From: Pelagibacteraceae bacterium AG-464-P07
GTDB lineage: Bacteria > Pseudomonadota > Alphaproteobacteria > Pelagibacterales > Pelagibacteraceae
Assembly: GCA_003211695.1 (NCBI GenBank)
Contig: QCSA01000009.1
Coordinates: 1-45,970, forward strand
Direction of reading: 5' to 3'
DNA length: 45,970 bases
Below are positions 3,128-34,756 of the stretch, piece by piece. The notes under the pieces are model-generated. The model ran no database searches, was not told the origin of the DNA, and saw nothing but the letters and a program-made list of their open reading frames with translations. Numbering within the stretch: position 1 is the first letter of the stretch; the number at the start of each line of letters is the position of its first letter. The position numbers were made by a program, and so were the translations under genes.

Positions 3128-4384
3128 TTACATATTTTGTAAAACAGAATCAGCTAAGGCATTAGCAGCGTCTTTTGAAGACATATCAGAATTAAAGTGT
3201 TCTGTAATAACGTCTTGAAGAGCAGCTTTCATTGTATTGCCTTGAGCCATACCGTGAGCAAAGCTTGGAACTAAGCCTCCTTTTGCTCCAGCTGTTTTAA
3301 TGTCAGCATTAGATGTTTTTGCACATTGATCAAATTCATCCATTGGTACATCCAAACGAGCTGGGATTGAACCTTTGTACAAGTTGAAAACTTTTTGGAA
3401 GTTTTTACCCATCATAAGTTTAGCCAATAATTTTTGGCCTGCTACTTTGTCAGGATCGTCTGTTTTATAAAAAATAAAACTATCTACGTTGTACAAGTAT
3501 CCATTATCTGATGGAGTTGAAGAACAGTAATAATCTACACCTGGTGTTTTGTTAGCAGCTGTAAATTCTCCTTTAGCCCAGTCTCCCATAATTTGAAAAC
3601 CAGCTTTACCTTCTATGACCATACCAGTTGCTACGTTCCAGTCTCTACCTGGACTACCTTCGTCAGTATAACCTTGCAGTTTTCTCATTTGATCAAAAAC
3701 TTTGATCGTGGTGTCACTTCTAAGGCAATTTTCGTCCAATTTTACATAACATTTTTTGTAATAACTATTTCCACCTACACCTAAAGCTACTGCTTCAAAT
3801 ACTGTCGCATCTTGCCAAGGCTGACCGCCATGCGCAAATGGAATTATTCCTGCTGTTTTTAGTGTATCAGCCGCAGCATTCAACTCATCCCAAGTTGTAG
3901 GTATAGAAATACCATTGGAATCAAATACTGATTTGTTAGCCCACAGCCAATCTATTCTGTGAATGTTTACTGGAGCAGCACAATAAGGACCACTATTGTT
4001 TTGGCATTTGTGTACTGCCGCTATCATAGGATCCAATAAATTATCCCATCCTTCAGCTTGTGCTACTGAATCAATATTGTAAGGTGCTACTACTCCTTCT
4101 TGGTCATACTCTTGAATTGTAGGACCTTTGATTTGAGAAGCAGAAGGAGGGTCGCCACCAACTATTCTTGCTTTTAATGTAACGTTTGCAGCATCACCGC
4201 CACCACCCGTTACAGGCATATCCATCCATTCGCCGCCATTTGCAGCGAAATCGTCTTTTAATACTTTAAGTGCAGCTGCCTCACCCCCAGATGTCCACCA
4301 ATGTAGAACTTCAATCTTTGGTCCTGCAAAAGAAACAATAGGAGTTAGTGCAAATACCATTAAAGCAACTAATATTCTCTTCAT
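3128..4384 (-). CDS. Periplasmic sugar-binding protein of ABC transporter (glucose GtsA-like)
   Basis: This is a 418-residue extracellular solute-binding protein (family 1). Residues 1-20 form a signal peptide (Lys-Arg, hydrophobic core, cleavage expected after SFA). The mature N-terminus contains VLHWWTSGGEAAAL, followed by a Gly-rich GGGGDAAN stretch and GDPPSASQIKGPTIQEY. From memory this pattern is characteristic of the glucose/mannose-binding proteins of Pseudomonas and rhizobia (GtsA-type), so glucose or a similar hexose is the likely ligand. It is the first gene of the transporter operon, has a clear AGAGGA ribosome-binding site, and is followed by a terminator-like hairpin, which fits high expression. 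The exact sugar is inference. Confidence 0.9.
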   Translation of the reverse strand: MKRILVALMVFALTPIVSFAGPKIEVLHWWTSGGEAAALKVLKDDFAANGGEWMDMPVTGGGGDAANVTLKARIVGGDPPSASQIKGPTIQEYDQEGVVAPYNIDSVAQAEGWDNLLDPMIAAVHKCQNNSGPYCAAPVNIHRIDWLWANKSVFDSNGISIPTTWDELNAAADTLKTAGIIPFAHGGQPWQDATVFEAVALGVGGNSYYKKCYVKLDENCLRSDTTIKVFDQMRKLQGYTDEGSPGRDWNVATGMVIEGKAGFQIMGDWAKGEFTAANKTPGVDYYCSSTPSDNGYLYNVDSFIFYKTDDPDKVAGQKLLAKLMMGKNFQKVFNLYKGSIPARLDVPMDEFDQCAKTSNADIKTAGAKGGLVPSFAHGMAQGNTMKAALQDVITEHFNSDMSSKDAANALADSVLQNM

Positions 4385-5502: not shown

Positions 5503-6945
5503 TCAGTTTGAAATTCCTAGGTGGGTATATTTGATGTTAAGATAATCTTTAATTCCCATAGAACCACCCTCTCTTCCATAGCCAGTTTGTTTAATTCCTC
5601 CAAAGGGTGCTTCAGCAACAGCTACAACAGGAGTATTAACTGCGACAATTCCCGTTTCCATTAACTCCGAGGCCTTATGGGCCTTTTCCATTGAATTCGT
5701 GAAGATATAACTTGCAAGACCGAGATCATGATTGTTGGCTCTCTTAATTACTTCATCAAAATGTTTGAATGTTGTGATTGGTACCAAAGGACCAAATGGT
5801 TCAACCTTCATAATTGTAAAATCATCTTTTACATTATCAAAAACCGTAGGTTCATAAAAATATCCTTTATTAAATCCAGAAGGCTTTTGTCCTCCACATA
5901 AAATTTTTGCTCCTTCTTTTTTTGTTGTTTCGACCATTTGTTCAATTTCTTCTAATCTTTTTTTTGTTGTCATTGGTCCTAACTGAACTCCTTCATTTAA
6001 GCCATTTCCAATTTTAAGTTTTTTTGTTTCTTCAACAAAGGATTTTGTAAATTCATCTTTTTTGCTTTCATGAATATAAAATCTACTTGGTGATATACAA
6101 ACTTGTCCATTATTTCTAAATTTAGCTGCAATAGCCATTTCAGTTACTTTTTGGATATCTGTATCGTCAAATACAATAAAAGGGGCATGGCCGCTTAATT
6201 CCATAGTAACCCTTTGAACTTTGTCAGCAGCTTGTTTCAAAATCAATTTACCCACTCTTGTAGAACCCGTAATAGAAATTTTCTTGATAATATCCGAAGC
6301 AATTAATTGGGAAGAAATTTCAGCAGGATCCCCTGAAAGTAAATTTACAACACCCGGAGGAACACCTGCTTCTTTTATGATATTCATCATTTCCATAACA
6401 CATCCGGGGGTTATTACATCTGGCTTACATATGACTGAACAGCCAGCTGCCAGTGCTGTTGAAATTTTTCTAGCTGCTAAAATTACTGGGAAATTCCAGG
6501 GAACTAATGCAGCTACCACACCAACAGGTTGATAGTAAACGTGTATTCTGGTGTTTTCAAATCTACTTTCAACAGTTTGACCGTAAATCCTTTTTGTTTC
6601 TTCAGCATTCCATTCAAAAATATCTGCAGCCCCATTAACCTCTCCGACTGCCTCTGCCAAAGGTTTACCAACTTCTAGAGTGAGCCATTTAGCAAGAACA
6701 TCATTTTTTTTTCTAATTAAATCGGCAATGTTTCTAATTATCGATGCTCTTTGCCAAGGCGGAGTTTTTTTCCAAACCTCAAAACCTTTTTCTGCTGACC
6801 TTAAAGCTTCTTGAACATCAGCTGAGGATGCCTTGGACGCACTACCAATTATTTCTTCTGTGGCAGGATTGATAACCTCGTAAGTTTCTTTTTTTTCAGA
6901 TGGTTGCCATTTACCATCAATGAATTGTCCAAATTTGCTATACAT
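5503..6945 (-). CDS. NAD(P)-dependent aldehyde dehydrogenase
   Basis: This is a 480-residue ALDH-superfamily enzyme, a normal length for succinate-semialdehyde, glycolaldehyde or lactaldehyde dehydrogenases. The cofactor-binding PWNFP is at 149-153, the general base Glu249 lies in MELSGHAP, and the catalytic Cys283 lies in NNGQVC; the C-terminal PFGGIKQTGYGREGG is also typical. The usual ELGGN/K is ELSGH here, a mild variation also known within the family. It heads a two-gene unit with the ROK kinase (27-base gap) and is divergent from the inositol-phosphate synthase gene. The substrate is uncertain; oxidation of a semialdehyde or sugar-derived aldehyde is the reasonable range. Confidence 0.9.
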   Translation of the reverse strand: MYSKFGQFIDGKWQPSEKKETYEVINPATEEIIGSASKASSADVQEALRSAEKGFEVWKKTPPWQRASIIRNIADLIRKKNDVLAKWLTLEVGKPLAEAVGEVNGAADIFEWNAEETKRIYGQTVESRFENTRIHVYYQPVGVVAALVPWNFPVILAARKISTALAAGCSVICKPDVITPGCVMEMMNIIKEAGVPPGVVNLLSGDPAEISSQLIASDIIKKISITGSTRVGKLILKQAADKVQRVTMELSGHAPFIVFDDTDIQKVTEMAIAAKFRNNGQVCISPSRFYIHESKKDEFTKSFVEETKKLKIGNGLNEGVQLGPMTTKKRLEEIEQMVETTKKEGAKILCGGQKPSGFNKGYFYEPTVFDNVKDDFTIMKVEPFGPLVPITTFKHFDEVIKRANNHDLGLASYIFTNSMEKAHKASELMETGIVAVNTPVVAVAEAPFGGIKQTGYGREGGSMGIKDYLNIKYTHLGISN

Positions 6946-30846: not shown

Positions 30847-30962
30847 AATTCAAGTGAATTAGCAGAAAAAATGTAAATATTTCAATAAAAAAGTTACTTA
30901 ATTGATATGTAGTAGAAAAATATAGTTATTGAAAACATTGTTGATTTAGTTATCATCTATTG

Positions 30963-32300
30963 ATGGCGAGATCTAGAAAATCAAGAAAAAGAGGAGCATC
31001 CAGACAAGCTGGTGGTGCGAATAAAGTGCTGCCATTAAATCAGTCAATTCCATTAGGAATTCAACATGTGCTGGCAATGTTTGCCGGAAATATCACGGTT
31101 CCGATAATTATCGCAGCTATTTTTGGTCAAACAACAGAAGAAAAGATTTTTTTAATACAGATGGCCCTATTTGTTTCTGGAGTAGCAACGATCATACAAA
31201 CAGTAGGCTATAAAAACATTGGCTCAAGACTTCCAATAATTCAAGGAACAAGTTTTGCTTTTATTCCTGTGATGGCACCTTTTGCTAAAGCTGGATTGGG
31301 AGCAGTCTTTACCGCAGCTTTTATTGGAGGAATTTTCCAAATGTGGATTGGCAAAATGTTAAGACCAATTCGACACATGTTTCCACCATTAGTTACAGGA
31401 ATTGTAGTTTTAATGATTGGTGTAAGTCTTCTTAAAGTTGGATTTATGTACGCAGGCGGTGGTGGATGGTTAATGAATAACAAACCCGAAGTTTTCGGAA
31501 ATGCTAATCATTTATTTATATCTTTTACAGTTTTAATAGCTGCACTTATAGCGCATCAAAAAGGAAAAGGAATGGTATCATCAGCTTCTATTTTGATTGG
31601 AATGGTTGTTGGTTATATAGTAGCAATGGCGTTGGGGATGGTTAATTATGGAAAAATTGCGGACGCTAGCTGGTTTGCTTTACCGATGCCATTTCAGTAT
31701 GGCATAGATTTTATTCCTGCCGCTATAATATTAATGTTATTCATGGCCATAGTAACAACCATTGAAACTATTGGAGATATAAGTGCTACCACAATGGGAG
31801 GAGCAAATAGAGAAGCTACCGATAAAGAGTTATCAGGTGGTATAATGGCTGACGGACTTGGTACAGCATTTGGATCAATTTTTAATGCAATGCCAAATAC
31901 TTCATATTCACAGAATGCAGGCCTAGTTGCTTTTACAGGGGTAATTAGCAGACATGTGGGAACAGTTGCTGGTATAATGCTTATTGTATTAGGCTTGTTT
32001 CCAAAACTTGGTGGAATTATTGCAGCAATGCCAGAATCCGTAATCGGTGGAGCTGCTATTATTATGTTTGGTTTAATTACAGCAGCAGGCATCAAATTGA
32101 TTTCTCAGTCAGAAATGAATCAAAGAAATCTATTAATATTAGCGCTATCACTTTCATTTGGTATTGGCATGTCTTTATTACCTCAGTTCGTGGCCCATAT
32201 TCCAGATTTTGGAATTAGTTTGAAATTATTGCTAACAACAGGATTAATTCCAGCAGGATTATTAGCATTTATTTTAAATGCTGCACTTCCTAAAAAGTAA
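30963..32300 (+). CDS. Nucleobase:cation symporter-2 (uracil/xanthine permease family)
   Basis: This is a 445-residue NCS2 permease with about twelve to fourteen membrane segments. QGTSFAFIPVM (first half) and TIETIGDISATTMGGANREATDKE (residues about 262-285, the long conserved loop) followed by NAMPNTSYSQNAG are family signatures for uracil/xanthine/urate transporters. The start is placed at ATG 30963; a TTG one codon upstream is in frame but unnecessary. A basic N-terminal stretch precedes the first helix. It is monocistronic and followed by tRNA-Leu 26 bases later. The specific nucleobase cannot be told. Confidence 0.9.
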   Translation: MARSRKSRKRGASRQAGGANKVLPLNQSIPLGIQHVLAMFAGNITVPIIIAAIFGQTTEEKIFLIQMALFVSGVATIIQTVGYKNIGSRLPIIQGTSFAFIPVMAPFAKAGLGAVFTAAFIGGIFQMWIGKMLRPIRHMFPPLVTGIVVLMIGVSLLKVGFMYAGGGGWLMNNKPEVFGNANHLFISFTVLIAALIAHQKGKGMVSSASILIGMVVGYIVAMALGMVNYGKIADASWFALPMPFQYGIDFIPAAIILMLFMAIVTTIETIGDISATTMGGANREATDKELSGGIMADGLGTAFGSIFNAMPNTSYSQNAGLVAFTGVISRHVGTVAGIMLIVLGLFPKLGGIIAAMPESVIGGAAIIMFGLITAAGIKLISQSEMNQRNLLILALSLSFGIGMSLLPQFVAHIPDFGISLKLLLTTGLIPAGLLAFILNAALPKK

Positions 32301-32326: not shown

Positions 32327-32411
32327 GGGCAAGTGGCGGAATTGGTATACGCGCTAGTCTTAGGAACTAGTACCGAAAGGTTTAAGAGTTCGAGTCTCTT
32401 CTTGCCCACCA
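32327..32411 (+). tRNA. tRNA-Leu (UAG anticodon)
   Basis: Acceptor stem GGGCAAG (32327-32333) pairs with CTTGCCC (32401-32407), followed by the encoded discriminator A and CCA to 32411. The anticodon arm is CTAGT-CTTAGGA-ACTAG with anticodon TAG at 32361-32363. The variable arm TACCGAAAGGTTTA is of the extended class-II type expected for leucine, and the T-arm contains GTTCGAGTC. All arms are complete, so the gene appears functional. Its 3' portion is repeated downstream, marking it as an integration site. Confidence 0.95.
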
Positions 32412-32412
32412 A
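32351..32412 (+). repeat. Left 62-bp direct repeat (3' part of tRNA-Leu; attL-like)
   Basis: This 62-base segment, from the anticodon arm through the CCA end of tRNA-Leu, is repeated base-for-base at 33309-33370, 958 bases away. Both copies are flanked by unrelated sequence. It is the footprint expected when a site-specific recombinase integrates at the 3' end of a tRNA gene; here the intact tRNA remains on the left. Confidence 0.85.
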
Positions 32413-32434
32413 CATTTCTAGACGATTTATTGCA

Positions 32435-32488
32435 TGCACTAGTGTTGGTATCTACGCAACATTTGTTGCGCAACCATGTACTGGTGCA
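32435..32488. other. Imperfect hairpin with central CGCAAC/GTTGCG palindrome next to tRNA-Leu
   Basis: A 54-base segment can fold back on itself. The inner arms CGCAAC (32455-32460) and GTTGCG (32465-32470) pair perfectly around ATTT, and the outer arms TGCAC.AGT / ACT.GTGCA also pair with a few wobbles and bulges. It lies 24 bases after the tRNA end and shares a 13-base sequence, ATTTGTTGCGCAA, with the other end of the island (33224-33236). Confidence 0.5.
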
Positions 32489-32501
32489 TATAATTTAATT
32501 A

Positions 32502-33089
32502 ATGAAAAAACTATCTACTTACCTGTTTTTAATTTTCTTCACCCTCCAAACTTCATCCTGGGCTGATGATATCCGAGACTTTCAGATTGAAGGGATGAGC
32601 GTGGGGGATAGTTTATTGGATTATTTTTCTAAAGAAGAGATTAATGCGAATATAGAGAAATATTATGATAGTGATAAATATACTGTAATTGAATTTTATT
32701 CATTGCCAAGATTTGAAGTCTATTCCGGTGTTTCTTTTGCAACTAAAAAACTTGATAAAAACTTTATAATTAAACAAATATCCGGAGTAAAATTTATCAA
32801 AAATATAAATGATTGTTATGACGAAAAAAATAAGATTGATAAAGAATTATCAAAAATATTTTCAAATACTACAAGAGAAGTAGAAAATGAAAAACATGAA
32901 GCAGACGAAACTGGTAAAAGCACTACAAGAGCAATTAGATATTATTTTGAATCTGATGATGTAGTAACTGTTATTTGTTATGATTGGTCAGATGATATAA
33001 CTGAAAAATTTAACTGGGGAGACAATCTTTCTGTGGAGATTACAACAAAGGAATTTAATAATTTTTTGTTATATGAGGCCTCCAAATAA
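32502..33089 (+). CDS. Predicted secreted protein of unknown function (island cargo)
   Basis: This is a 195-residue protein with an N-terminal signal peptide (MKKLSTYLFLIFFTLQTSSWA, 21 residues, then cleavage) and a soluble acidic mature domain beginning DDIRDFQIEGMSVGDSLLDYF. The mature part has two cysteines, one in NDCYDEKN and one in VICYDWSDD, which could form a disulfide in the periplasm. No domain of known function is recognised. It is the only gene in the segment bounded by the tRNA-Leu repeats, so it is the apparent cargo. Proteins with the same GMS-GDSLLDYF opening are, from memory, recurrent in SAR11 genomes, but I cannot verify that here. Confidence 0.75.
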   Translation: MKKLSTYLFLIFFTLQTSSWADDIRDFQIEGMSVGDSLLDYFSKEEINANIEKYYDSDKYTVIEFYSLPRFEVYSGVSFATKKLDKNFIIKQISGVKFIKNINDCYDEKNKIDKELSKIFSNTTREVENEKHEADETGKSTTRAIRYYFESDDVVTVICYDWSDDITEKFNWGDNLSVEITTKEFNNFLLYEASK

Positions 33090-33183
33090 ACTCATGAAAC
33101 GTTTATCTCTATACCTCTTTACTTTTTGTGAATAAAAAAAAATTGAATAAAAAATAAAATATGAATATAAATCAACTAGATTT

Positions 33184-33212
33184 GGCAGACGCGCTAGTCT
33201 TAACGACTAGCG
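33184..33212 (+). other. tRNA-Leu-like remnant (D-arm and anticodon arm, UAA-type loop)
   Basis: The stretch GGCAGACGCGCTAGTC resembles the D-arm side of a leucine tRNA, and CGCTAGTC (33192-33199) with GACTAGCG (33205-33212) forms a perfect 8-bp stem around TTAAC, reading as an anticodon arm with TAA. No acceptor stem or T-arm follows, so it cannot be a functional tRNA. It is likely debris from an earlier integration event at a leucine tRNA site. Confidence 0.45.
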
Positions 33213-33223
33213 ACATAAAAATA

Positions 33224-33264
33224 ATTTGTTGCGCAAGATGTTGCGTTAGAGATAAAATGTTGCG
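33224..33264. repeat. Cluster of TGTTGCG motifs at right end of island
   Basis: TGTTGCG occurs at 33227-33233, 33239-33245 and 33258-33264, and its complement CGCAACA at 32455-32461 plus a direct copy at 32464-32470 on the left side. Repeated short motifs flanking the core site are typical of arm-binding sites of tyrosine recombinases; the match here is by pattern only. Confidence 0.4.
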
Positions 33265-33308
33265 TTGTGGAAAGGAGAGAGGCAGTAGTACCAATACTTC
33301 TAGACTAA

Positions 33309-33370
33309 GCGCTAGTCTTAGGAACTAGTACCGAAAGGTTTAAGAGTTCGAGTCTCTTCTTGCCCACCAA
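33309..33370 (+). repeat. Right 62-bp direct repeat (tRNA-Leu 3' fragment; attR-like)
   Basis: This is identical to 32351-32412 and ends six bases before the tig start codon. There is no complementary 5' half or acceptor strand upstream, so it is a truncated tRNA copy rather than a second gene. Its presence places the tig 5' leader directly next to the integration scar. Confidence 0.85.
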
Positions 33371-33376
33371 ATAATT

Positions 33377-34756
33377 ATGAAAATAACAATAGATTCTAAA
33401 AAAGGATTAATGACTAATCTTCGAGTTATTGTTGATAAAAAAACAATAAATGATCAAGTAATAGGAAGATTTGAGGAATTAAAAAAAACGGTCAACTTAA
33501 AAGGATTTAGACCTGGCAAGGTTCCAGTAGAAATTCTAAAAAGACAATTTGGAAAAGCAGTTTATGGTGAAGTTCTCGATAAAGTTTTAAAAGAGTCTTC
33601 TACTAAAGCCTTAGAGGATAAAAAAATAAAGGTTGCTGGACAACCTAAAATAGATCTTAAAAGCCATGGAGAGAACAAGGATTTAGAATACACAATTCAT
33701 GTTGAACAATTGCCCAAAATACAAACTAAAGAAATAAAGGAAATTAAAATTACAAATTATGAAATTAAAGTAACTAACATAGACATAGATAAAAGAATCA
33801 AAGATATTGCTAAAAATCAAAATAATTTCAAAGACAAGAAGTCCAACGAAAGCGCTGTAAAGGGAGATTTAGTTGTTATTGACTACAAAGCAACAATTGG
33901 TGGAGAAGATTTTAAAGGAGGTGAAGGAAAAAATACTCAAATTATTTTGGGCAAAGATTTATTTATAAAAGATTTTGATAAACAGTTAATTGGCGTAAAG
34001 AAACAAAAAGAAAAGATTGTGGATGTTACTTTACCAGATAATTATCCACATAAAGAATACTCAAATAAAAAAGCAAAATTTGTTTGTAAAATTATAAACA
34101 TCAAAAGTCCGGAAGAATTTAAAATTAACGATGAGTTTGCAAAAAATCTTGGTGCAAAAGATCTAAATAATTTAAAAATAATTGTTTCAAAGCAAATTCA
34201 AGAACAGTATAAAAATACTCTTGATGCAATAACAAAAAAAGCAATTCTTGATCAATTGGATAAATTTCATGATATTCAAATCCCAGAAAACCTTATTCAA
34301 CAAGAAACTGAACTGCTAAATCATGGAATGAAAAAAGAAGAAATAGAAAAAAATAAAAAATTAAATGAAAAGACAGCAAAAAAAAGAATTAAAATTGGAT
34401 TAATTTTGAATGAGTTTGGAGAACAAAATAATTTAAAAGTTAATGAGGAAGAAATTAAAAGTGAAATTCAAAAACAAATTCAAATGATGCCTGATCAAGC
34501 TAAACAGATTACGGAATATTATCAACAAAATCCTTCAGCAGTTGCGAGTTTAAGAGGAGGAATATATGAGGATAAAATTATTTCCTTGGTAAAAGAAAAA
34601 GCTAGATCAACAAAAAAAGCGATTTCTATAAAAGAAGCAGAGAAGATTGTATTGGATCAAAATAAGGAAACCAAGAAGAGTGGCGCGTCACAGCCAAAAA
34701 TTCAAAAAACTACAACAAAAACCATTAAGAAATCAAAAAAAGTTAGCAAAAAGTAA
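33377..34756 (+). CDS. tig: Trigger factor (ribosome-associated chaperone)
   Basis: This is a 459-residue trigger factor. The ribosome-docking loop GFRPGKVP is at 43-50, followed by a PPIase (FKBP-like) domain at about 150-240 (GDLVVIDYKATIGGEDFKG) and the helical chaperone arms to about 410. A long lysine-rich, low-complexity C-terminal tail (about 415-459) extends past the usual fold. It assists folding of nascent chains at the ribosome exit tunnel. The order tig-clpP-clpX-lon is conserved in many proteobacteria. Its ATG is only six bases after the tRNA-derived repeat, with no clear ribosome-binding site in between, so any leader overlaps the repeat. Confidence 0.95.
   Translation: MKITIDSKKGLMTNLRVIVDKKTINDQVIGRFEELKKTVNLKGFRPGKVPVEILKRQFGKAVYGEVLDKVLKESSTKALEDKKIKVAGQPKIDLKSHGENKDLEYTIHVEQLPKIQTKEIKEIKITNYEIKVTNIDIDKRIKDIAKNQNNFKDKKSNESAVKGDLVVIDYKATIGGEDFKGGEGKNTQIILGKDLFIKDFDKQLIGVKKQKEKIVDVTLPDNYPHKEYSNKKAKFVCKIINIKSPEEFKINDEFAKNLGAKDLNNLKIIVSKQIQEQYKNTLDAITKKAILDQLDKFHDIQIPENLIQQETELLNHGMKKEEIEKNKKLNEKTAKKRIKIGLILNEFGEQNNLKVNEEEIKSEIQKQIQMMPDQAKQITEYYQQNPSAVASLRGGIYEDKIISLVKEKARSTKKAISIKEAEKIVLDQNKETKKSGASQPKIQKTTTKTIKKSKKVSKK

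Follow-up and report, generated by a model that had tools for sequence, protein, structure and literature searches.

We propose that the stretch analysed here (the window; 45,970 nucleotides of Pelagibacteraceae bacterium AG-464-P07) carries, between tRNA-Leu(UAG) and tig, a non-autonomous single-gene integrative cassette with the attL and attR of an HTVC025P-like pelagiphage, moved by a pelagiphage integrase acting in trans. We put the probability of this reading at about 60%. The first-pass annotation took the small element as a single oddity; it proves instead to have many counterparts in SAR11, which together form a class of single-gene cassettes with no integrase. The locus is laid out as follows (window coordinates):

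30960..32300, + strand: uraA-like permease gene, the conserved left neighbour (ORF list; named by inspection)
32327..32411, + strand: tRNA-Leu(UAG), intact, also the attachment site (ARAGORN, Rfam)
32351..32412, + strand: left 62-bp repeat copy, attL core (exact repeat)
32413..32480, + strand: left inner arm, P'-like, with CGCAACA at 32455 and TGTTGCG at 32464 (alignment with contig L018, word count)
32502..33089, + strand: cargo gene, 195-aa secreted protein (ORF list; signal peptide by inspection)
33179..33210, + strand: decayed 5' part of a second tRNA-Leu, placed like the phage-borne tRNA-Leu of HTVC025P-type phages
33222..33275, + strand: right inner arm, P-like, with TGTTGCG at 33227, 33239 and 33258 (alignment with L018, word count)
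33309..33370, + strand: right 62-bp repeat copy, attR core (exact repeat)
33377..34756, + strand: tig (trigger factor), the conserved right neighbour

The direct repeat is exact over 62 bp and consists of the last 61 nt of tRNA-Leu(UAG) plus one base, so that the 3' part of the tRNA gene recurs exactly 958 bases on, as first annotated, with the right copy ending 6 bp ahead of tig. The 896 bp between the copies hold a single plausible gene, that of the secreted protein, and no integrase; here too the ORF list agrees with the initial description. The G+C content of the island (29.9% versus 31.6% for the window) is uninformative. Five TGTTGCG/CGCAACA words are spread across its two inner ends (0 of 200 shuffles), and the decayed tRNA piece, the third tRNA-Leu sequence at the locus, scores z = 9.7 against the host tRNA. 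Neither feature figures in the first-pass annotation.

The island is an insertion, since the tRNA-Leu(UAG)-tig junction is empty in all 28 readable relatives, one of them of the same genus, which have a single tail copy and the tRNA gene 5 to about 55 bp upstream of tig. Diverged repeats and a lack of empty sites among relatives had been named at first pass as what would speak against a mobile element, and the 28 empty junctions are what the comparison returned. A chance origin of the repeat is ruled out by the 62-bp exact match together with these empty sites. Occupancy of the site varies, with prophages there in two further SAR11 genomes (L211 and L212). Among the matches listed, from a search of 297 family genomes, no other genome has a closely spaced perfect 62-bp pair.

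The two ends of the island have the anatomy of phage attachment sites. A pelagiphage contig from IMG/VR (L018) encodes a terminase, a tyrosine integrase (PF00589 match; 41% identical to the HTVC025P integrase) and tRNA-Leu(UAG), followed by repeats, core and repeats. The L018 arm that follows the core (P') can be aligned with the left inner arm of the island (z = 6.6), and the one that precedes the core (P) with its right inner arm (z = 7.6), scores that none of 1000 shuffles reached in either case; a cargo-gene segment, serving as control, gave no match to the L018 attP (z = -0.6). Attachment-site arms for an integrase are thus present in phage order. The cultured pelagiphages HTVC025P and HTVC041P share the arrangement of integrase, own tRNA-Leu(UAG), TTGC-type repeats, core and TTGC-type repeats, and their core is short and matches the anticodon loop. 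In L211, L212 and the IMG/VR contig L015, a prophage end abuts tig at the tRNA-Leu(UAG) site, with terminase, phage tRNA-Leu, arms and core, and with an integrase in L211 and L212. Judged by alignment, the right end of the island (tRNA-Leu remnant, arm, core, tig) is this prophage-end structure minus the phage, and the island as a whole holds both attachment sites, attL and attR, of an HTVC025P-like pelagiphage in full, one host-family gene replacing the phage. It contains no phage protein gene; the only notable ORF is the cargo gene, which was not found in the phage collections. The suggestion in the first-pass annotation that this is a recurrent phage entry point is borne out by the prophage ends and by the attP of L018, HTVC025P and HTVC041P, and the comparison it proposed, of this interval across SAR11 genomes and with pelagiphage attP, yielded empty sites, prophage ends and arm matches. 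A blastn search of the right end against isolate phages was set aside, as it matched mostly tRNA-Leu genes. In another IMG/VR contig (L014, IMGVR_UViG_3300006565_000316), a T4-like capsid region is joined to a SAR11 tig/tRNA-Leu(UAG) end with the site empty; this contig looks like a chimera.

These ends also lend themselves to the main rival explanation, namely that the island is the remnant of one HTVC025P-like prophage at tRNA-Leu(UAG), whose secreted gene was a lysogenic-conversion gene by the left arm and which lost everything between that gene and the phage tRNA-Leu. The order of a prophage is preserved in both arms and the decayed phage-type tRNA-Leu, other SAR11 have complete prophage ends at this tRNA, and the cargo gene adjoins the left arm. 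The decayed tRNA-Leu is well explained by a shrunken prophage, which counts against the cassette reading. Against a remnant, the 62-bp repeat is still perfect, and further evidence comes from the cargo and from its recurrence elsewhere.

The cargo protein has an N-terminal signal, a conserved DIxDFQIEGxSxGDSLLDxFS motif and two conserved Cys. It belongs to a SAR11 multigene family, for which an alignment search found 101 relatives where single-sequence peptide patterns had found none, and the listed family loci are all labelled Pelagibacteraceae, Pelagibacterales, Candidatus Pelagibacter or uncultured Alphaproteobacteria. The family has no tblastn match in 50,697 phage records and none in IMG/VR, the latter a weaker absence as it comes from a short-peptide-pattern search; its absence from both phage collections argues against a prophage origin. 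In Pfam, PHROGs, PADLOC and NCBIfam, no match rose above noise that would make it a known phage or defence gene. The AlphaFold model is confident (pLDDT 91), and its comparison with the PDB gave no convincing match, the best (E 2e-3, TM-score 0.33; Mog1, PsbP) not being usable. Any role at the envelope, for example in interfering with the adsorption of phages, is speculation.

Matching tRNA or tmRNA tail repeats bracket 33 of the 311 distinct family genes in the examined loci. The other 278 have no detectable bracketing repeat, which counts against our reading. The family loci (801 kb) contain 59 tail fragments and the control stretches (250 kb) 1, a contrast that partly reflects tRNA density, as there are 60 tRNA genes in the former and 2 in the latter. 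Upstream of many family genes (L110-L182) lies a AATCTTGACAC...CACAGTGAG motif (paired TGACACA, 11 bp apart), which may be an arm site or a promoter. The word AATCTTGA occurs upstream of 64 of 296 family genes versus 0 of 188 controls.

The same genome carries sister cassettes with different arms. On contig C5, tRNA-Leu(CAA) is followed by a homologous secreted gene and, 861 bp on, by a 58-bp tail repeat with one mismatch; the arms are (C)TCATACACG pairs. At this site most relatives have a single tail copy and the next gene within a few bp, and three loci are arranged otherwise. On contig C7, tRNA-Gly(GCC) precedes two tandem units: one carries a homologous secreted gene and has CACACACT arms, and the unit behind it carries a membrane-protein gene and has GATCACA arms. 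Further family genes lie on contigs C10 and C18, separated by decayed tRNA-Arg(UCU) ends. Repeated arm words are significant in the four arm pairs that could be tested here, the observed count being reached in 0, 1, 2 and 4 of 200 shuffles. No exact attP core for tRNA-Leu(CAA) was found in IMG/VR, and two matches there to a tRNA-Gly attP core were rejected as full tRNA-Gly genes in unrelated sequence. Two tRNA-Arg(UCU) remnants (L011:7290-7341 and L009:229-284) differ by paired T-stem changes, GAGG/CCTC versus CAAG/CTTG, and hence derive from different tRNA-Arg versions. The tRNA sites of this genome were checked in individual stretches.

As to an integrase of its own, the genome has one PF00589 gene, of about 325 aa, on a model on which the pelagiphage integrase does score. 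One such gene per genome, of that length, was found in 5 of 7 searched genomes, those with a match, and it is plausibly XerC/D. The assembly (46 contigs) covers 83% of the genome, and a gap could therefore hide an integrase, a point against the cassette reading.

The class extends to other SAR11 genomes. Members of the cargo family occupy equivalent units of 0.6-0.9 kb at tRNA-Leu(CAA), tRNA-Gly(GCC), tRNA-Thr(UGU) and ssrA, in places as tandem arrays. Several of the 33 bracketed family genes make up one-gene units, 0.62-0.82 kb long, at tRNA-Thr, tRNA-Gly, tRNA-Leu(CAA) or ssrA. Outside the present genome, such units lie in L150, L178, L177, L141 and L039, and none of the single-gene units contains an integrase. 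Small modules in AG-913-I14 and AG-414-B15 are separated by repeated copies of the ssrA 3' end, again in arrays with no integrase. Two tRNA-Thr units speak against our reading, as their exact 7-mer arm words were not significant; their arms are likely degenerate, with TGTGnCA pairs 11 bp apart.

Comparison between genomes suggests that such cassettes move. AG-439-F03 (L140) and AG-430-K10 (L151) have an ssrA cassette in common that starts exactly at the core and is 94.8% identical from there on, versus 87.4% for the ssrA flank. It adjoins ssrA in one genome, and in the other it comes after further units. AG-916-D16, a genome with ssrA on another contig, has in a tRNA-Thr island a version that is 85% identical to it. 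Cassette order and array position thus change.

This recurrence is what a prophage remnant accommodates poorly. The same family would have to have been carried by unrelated phages to at least three sites with different arms in one genome, followed each time by the same drastic deletion, and the cassettes elsewhere change array order. We therefore regard a deleted prophage as unlikely, though well ahead of the remaining alternatives.

How, then, would a cassette lacking an integrase enter this site? We infer that it enters as a circle, by site-specific recombination at tRNA-Leu(UAG), and that a tyrosine integrase acts on it in trans, the simplest source of which would be an infecting or resident pelagiphage. 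Insertion would leave core and P' arm at the left end and phage-tRNA remnant, P arm and core at the right, and the duplicated tRNA-Leu 3' end would keep the tRNA intact. Passage between cells may occur by transduction or natural transformation. An objection is the size of the circle, about 0.96 kb; to our knowledge this is far below that of any packaged element.

The first-pass annotation had offered a satellite mobilised in trans or the remnant of a prophage. These were the right two options to weigh, and mobilisation in trans is retained here; a satellite in the strict sense, with its own integrase, regulators, replication or packaging functions, is unsupported. A trimmed version of the latter, a true phage satellite or tycheposon-like element that brought along an integrase and helper-dependent functions and has since lost all but its ends and cargo, would share the tRNA attachment site, the cargo gene and the marine streamlined host, and has known marine relatives in tycheposons and VEIMEs. 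The present genome may hold a decayed element of this type at tRNA-Cys, where there is a truncated integrase-like ORF (L086:5283-6023). We consider this origin improbable for the Leu(UAG) island, as integrase, regulator, replication and packaging genes are missing from all single-gene units and sizes of 0.6-0.9 kb recur. An artefact (MDA chimera or misassembly), or a duplication that is not mobile, with the tRNA end copied locally in tandem, is very improbable: single-cell genomes are common among the relatives found and direct repeats can mislead assemblers, but the inserted ends carry phage-type arms that are absent at the empty site and resemble phage attP, and the layout recurs at other sites in independent genomes.

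Additive islands are among the closest known systems. Published accounts describe additive flexible genomic islands (fGI-2) of 330 bp-42 kb with recurring tRNA-end repeats in Ca. Methylopumilus (PMC10872708), and tRNA-targeted cassettes in Ca. Actinomarinales (PMC7771536). These resemble our units in having cassettes of one to many genes at tRNA genes, tRNA 3'-end direct repeats and streamlined aquatic hosts; repeated insertion extends the island, and most genes are of unknown function (PMC10872708, PMC7771536). Here, in contrast, the units are single-gene and one cargo family recurs at several tRNA and ssrA sites. Moreover, the excerpted accounts describe no arms or helper phage (PMC10872708, PMC7771536), whereas at Leu(UAG) the pelagiphage-type arms and phage-tRNA remnant identify the likely recombinase. 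What is new is therefore the single-gene unit in which pelagiphage arms can be recognised, together with a cargo family that recurs; the additive-island mechanism is already known in outline from other streamlined marine bacteria. A SAR11 ecogenomics paper (PMC7318151) does not contain the terms additive, cassette, prophage or integrase.

With HTVC025P/HTVC041P-type prophages (Autographiviridae), the island shares the tRNA, the core, the arm layout and the right-end position of the phage tRNA-Leu, but it lacks all phage genes, integrase included, and has one host-family gene. Tycheposons, which span 4-200 kb (PMC10872708), VEIMEs, PICMIs and other satellites resemble it in tRNA-type attachment, cargo and probable helper dependence; unlike the island, which has no integrase of its own, they are kilobases long and carry a tyrosine recombinase and further functions. 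CIMEs are likewise flanked by attL and attR with no recombinase of their own, but the island's arms are pelagiphage-type rather than ICE ends, and tandem accretion is seen at tRNA-Gly and ssrA. Integrons also form tandem arrays of small gene cassettes; here, however, the borders are tRNA or ssrA 3' ends with phage-type arms and not attC, and no IntI was seen, the genome having its one PF00589 gene.

More tentatively, and with less confidence than we place in the Leu(UAG) cassette itself, SAR11 might maintain an integron-like cassette economy with a recombinase that the host does not encode: the integrases of infecting pelagiphages would insert, stack and exchange single-gene cassettes with full phage-type att sites at tRNA genes and ssrA, with a diversified secreted family as preferred cargo. 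SAR11 genomes are tiny and, according to the published account, prophages are rare in Pelagibacterales (PMC7771536), yet gene content varies strongly. If our reading is true, borrowed phage integrases would account for the gain of genes by cells that have no mobile-element genes of their own, and would link pelagiphage host range to gene flow, and matching arms are predicted to decide which phage moves which cassette. The combination of tail repeat and paired arm repeats provides a search signature for cassettes in other streamlined bacteria.

Several loci show related arrangements. In AG-913-I14, a 12-kb island (L040:4197-16569) lies between tRNA-Thr(UGU) and its tail repeat, with secreted-family genes at both ends and, in the middle, ORFs that by inspection resemble two proteases, one caspase-like and one trypsin-like, and a ligand-gated channel; L042 has a similar gene set, with no tRNA. 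In AG-464-I02 (L113:5810-7440), it is the 5' half of tRNA-Gly(GCC), not the 3' end, that is present twice, on either side of one secreted gene, with GCGACGTGAGTGCGACG repeats, and this unit is a cassette on the other side of the tRNA. In the present genome, tRNA-Cys on contig C21 (L086:3337-6168) has a second complete copy 2.7 kb on, with TTGACCAAG/CCTGACCAAG repeats; the integrase-like ORF there, on the - strand, resembles an integrase minus its catalytic part and has no Pfam match. On contig C3 (L092:2235-6740), decayed copies of tRNA-Phe come after tRNA-Phe(GAA), at 2768-2802, at 3859-3934 and at about 6670-6735, and a PhyH dioxygenase gene and two oxidoreductase-like genes lie between the copies; this locus is a further cassette array, with metabolic cargo.
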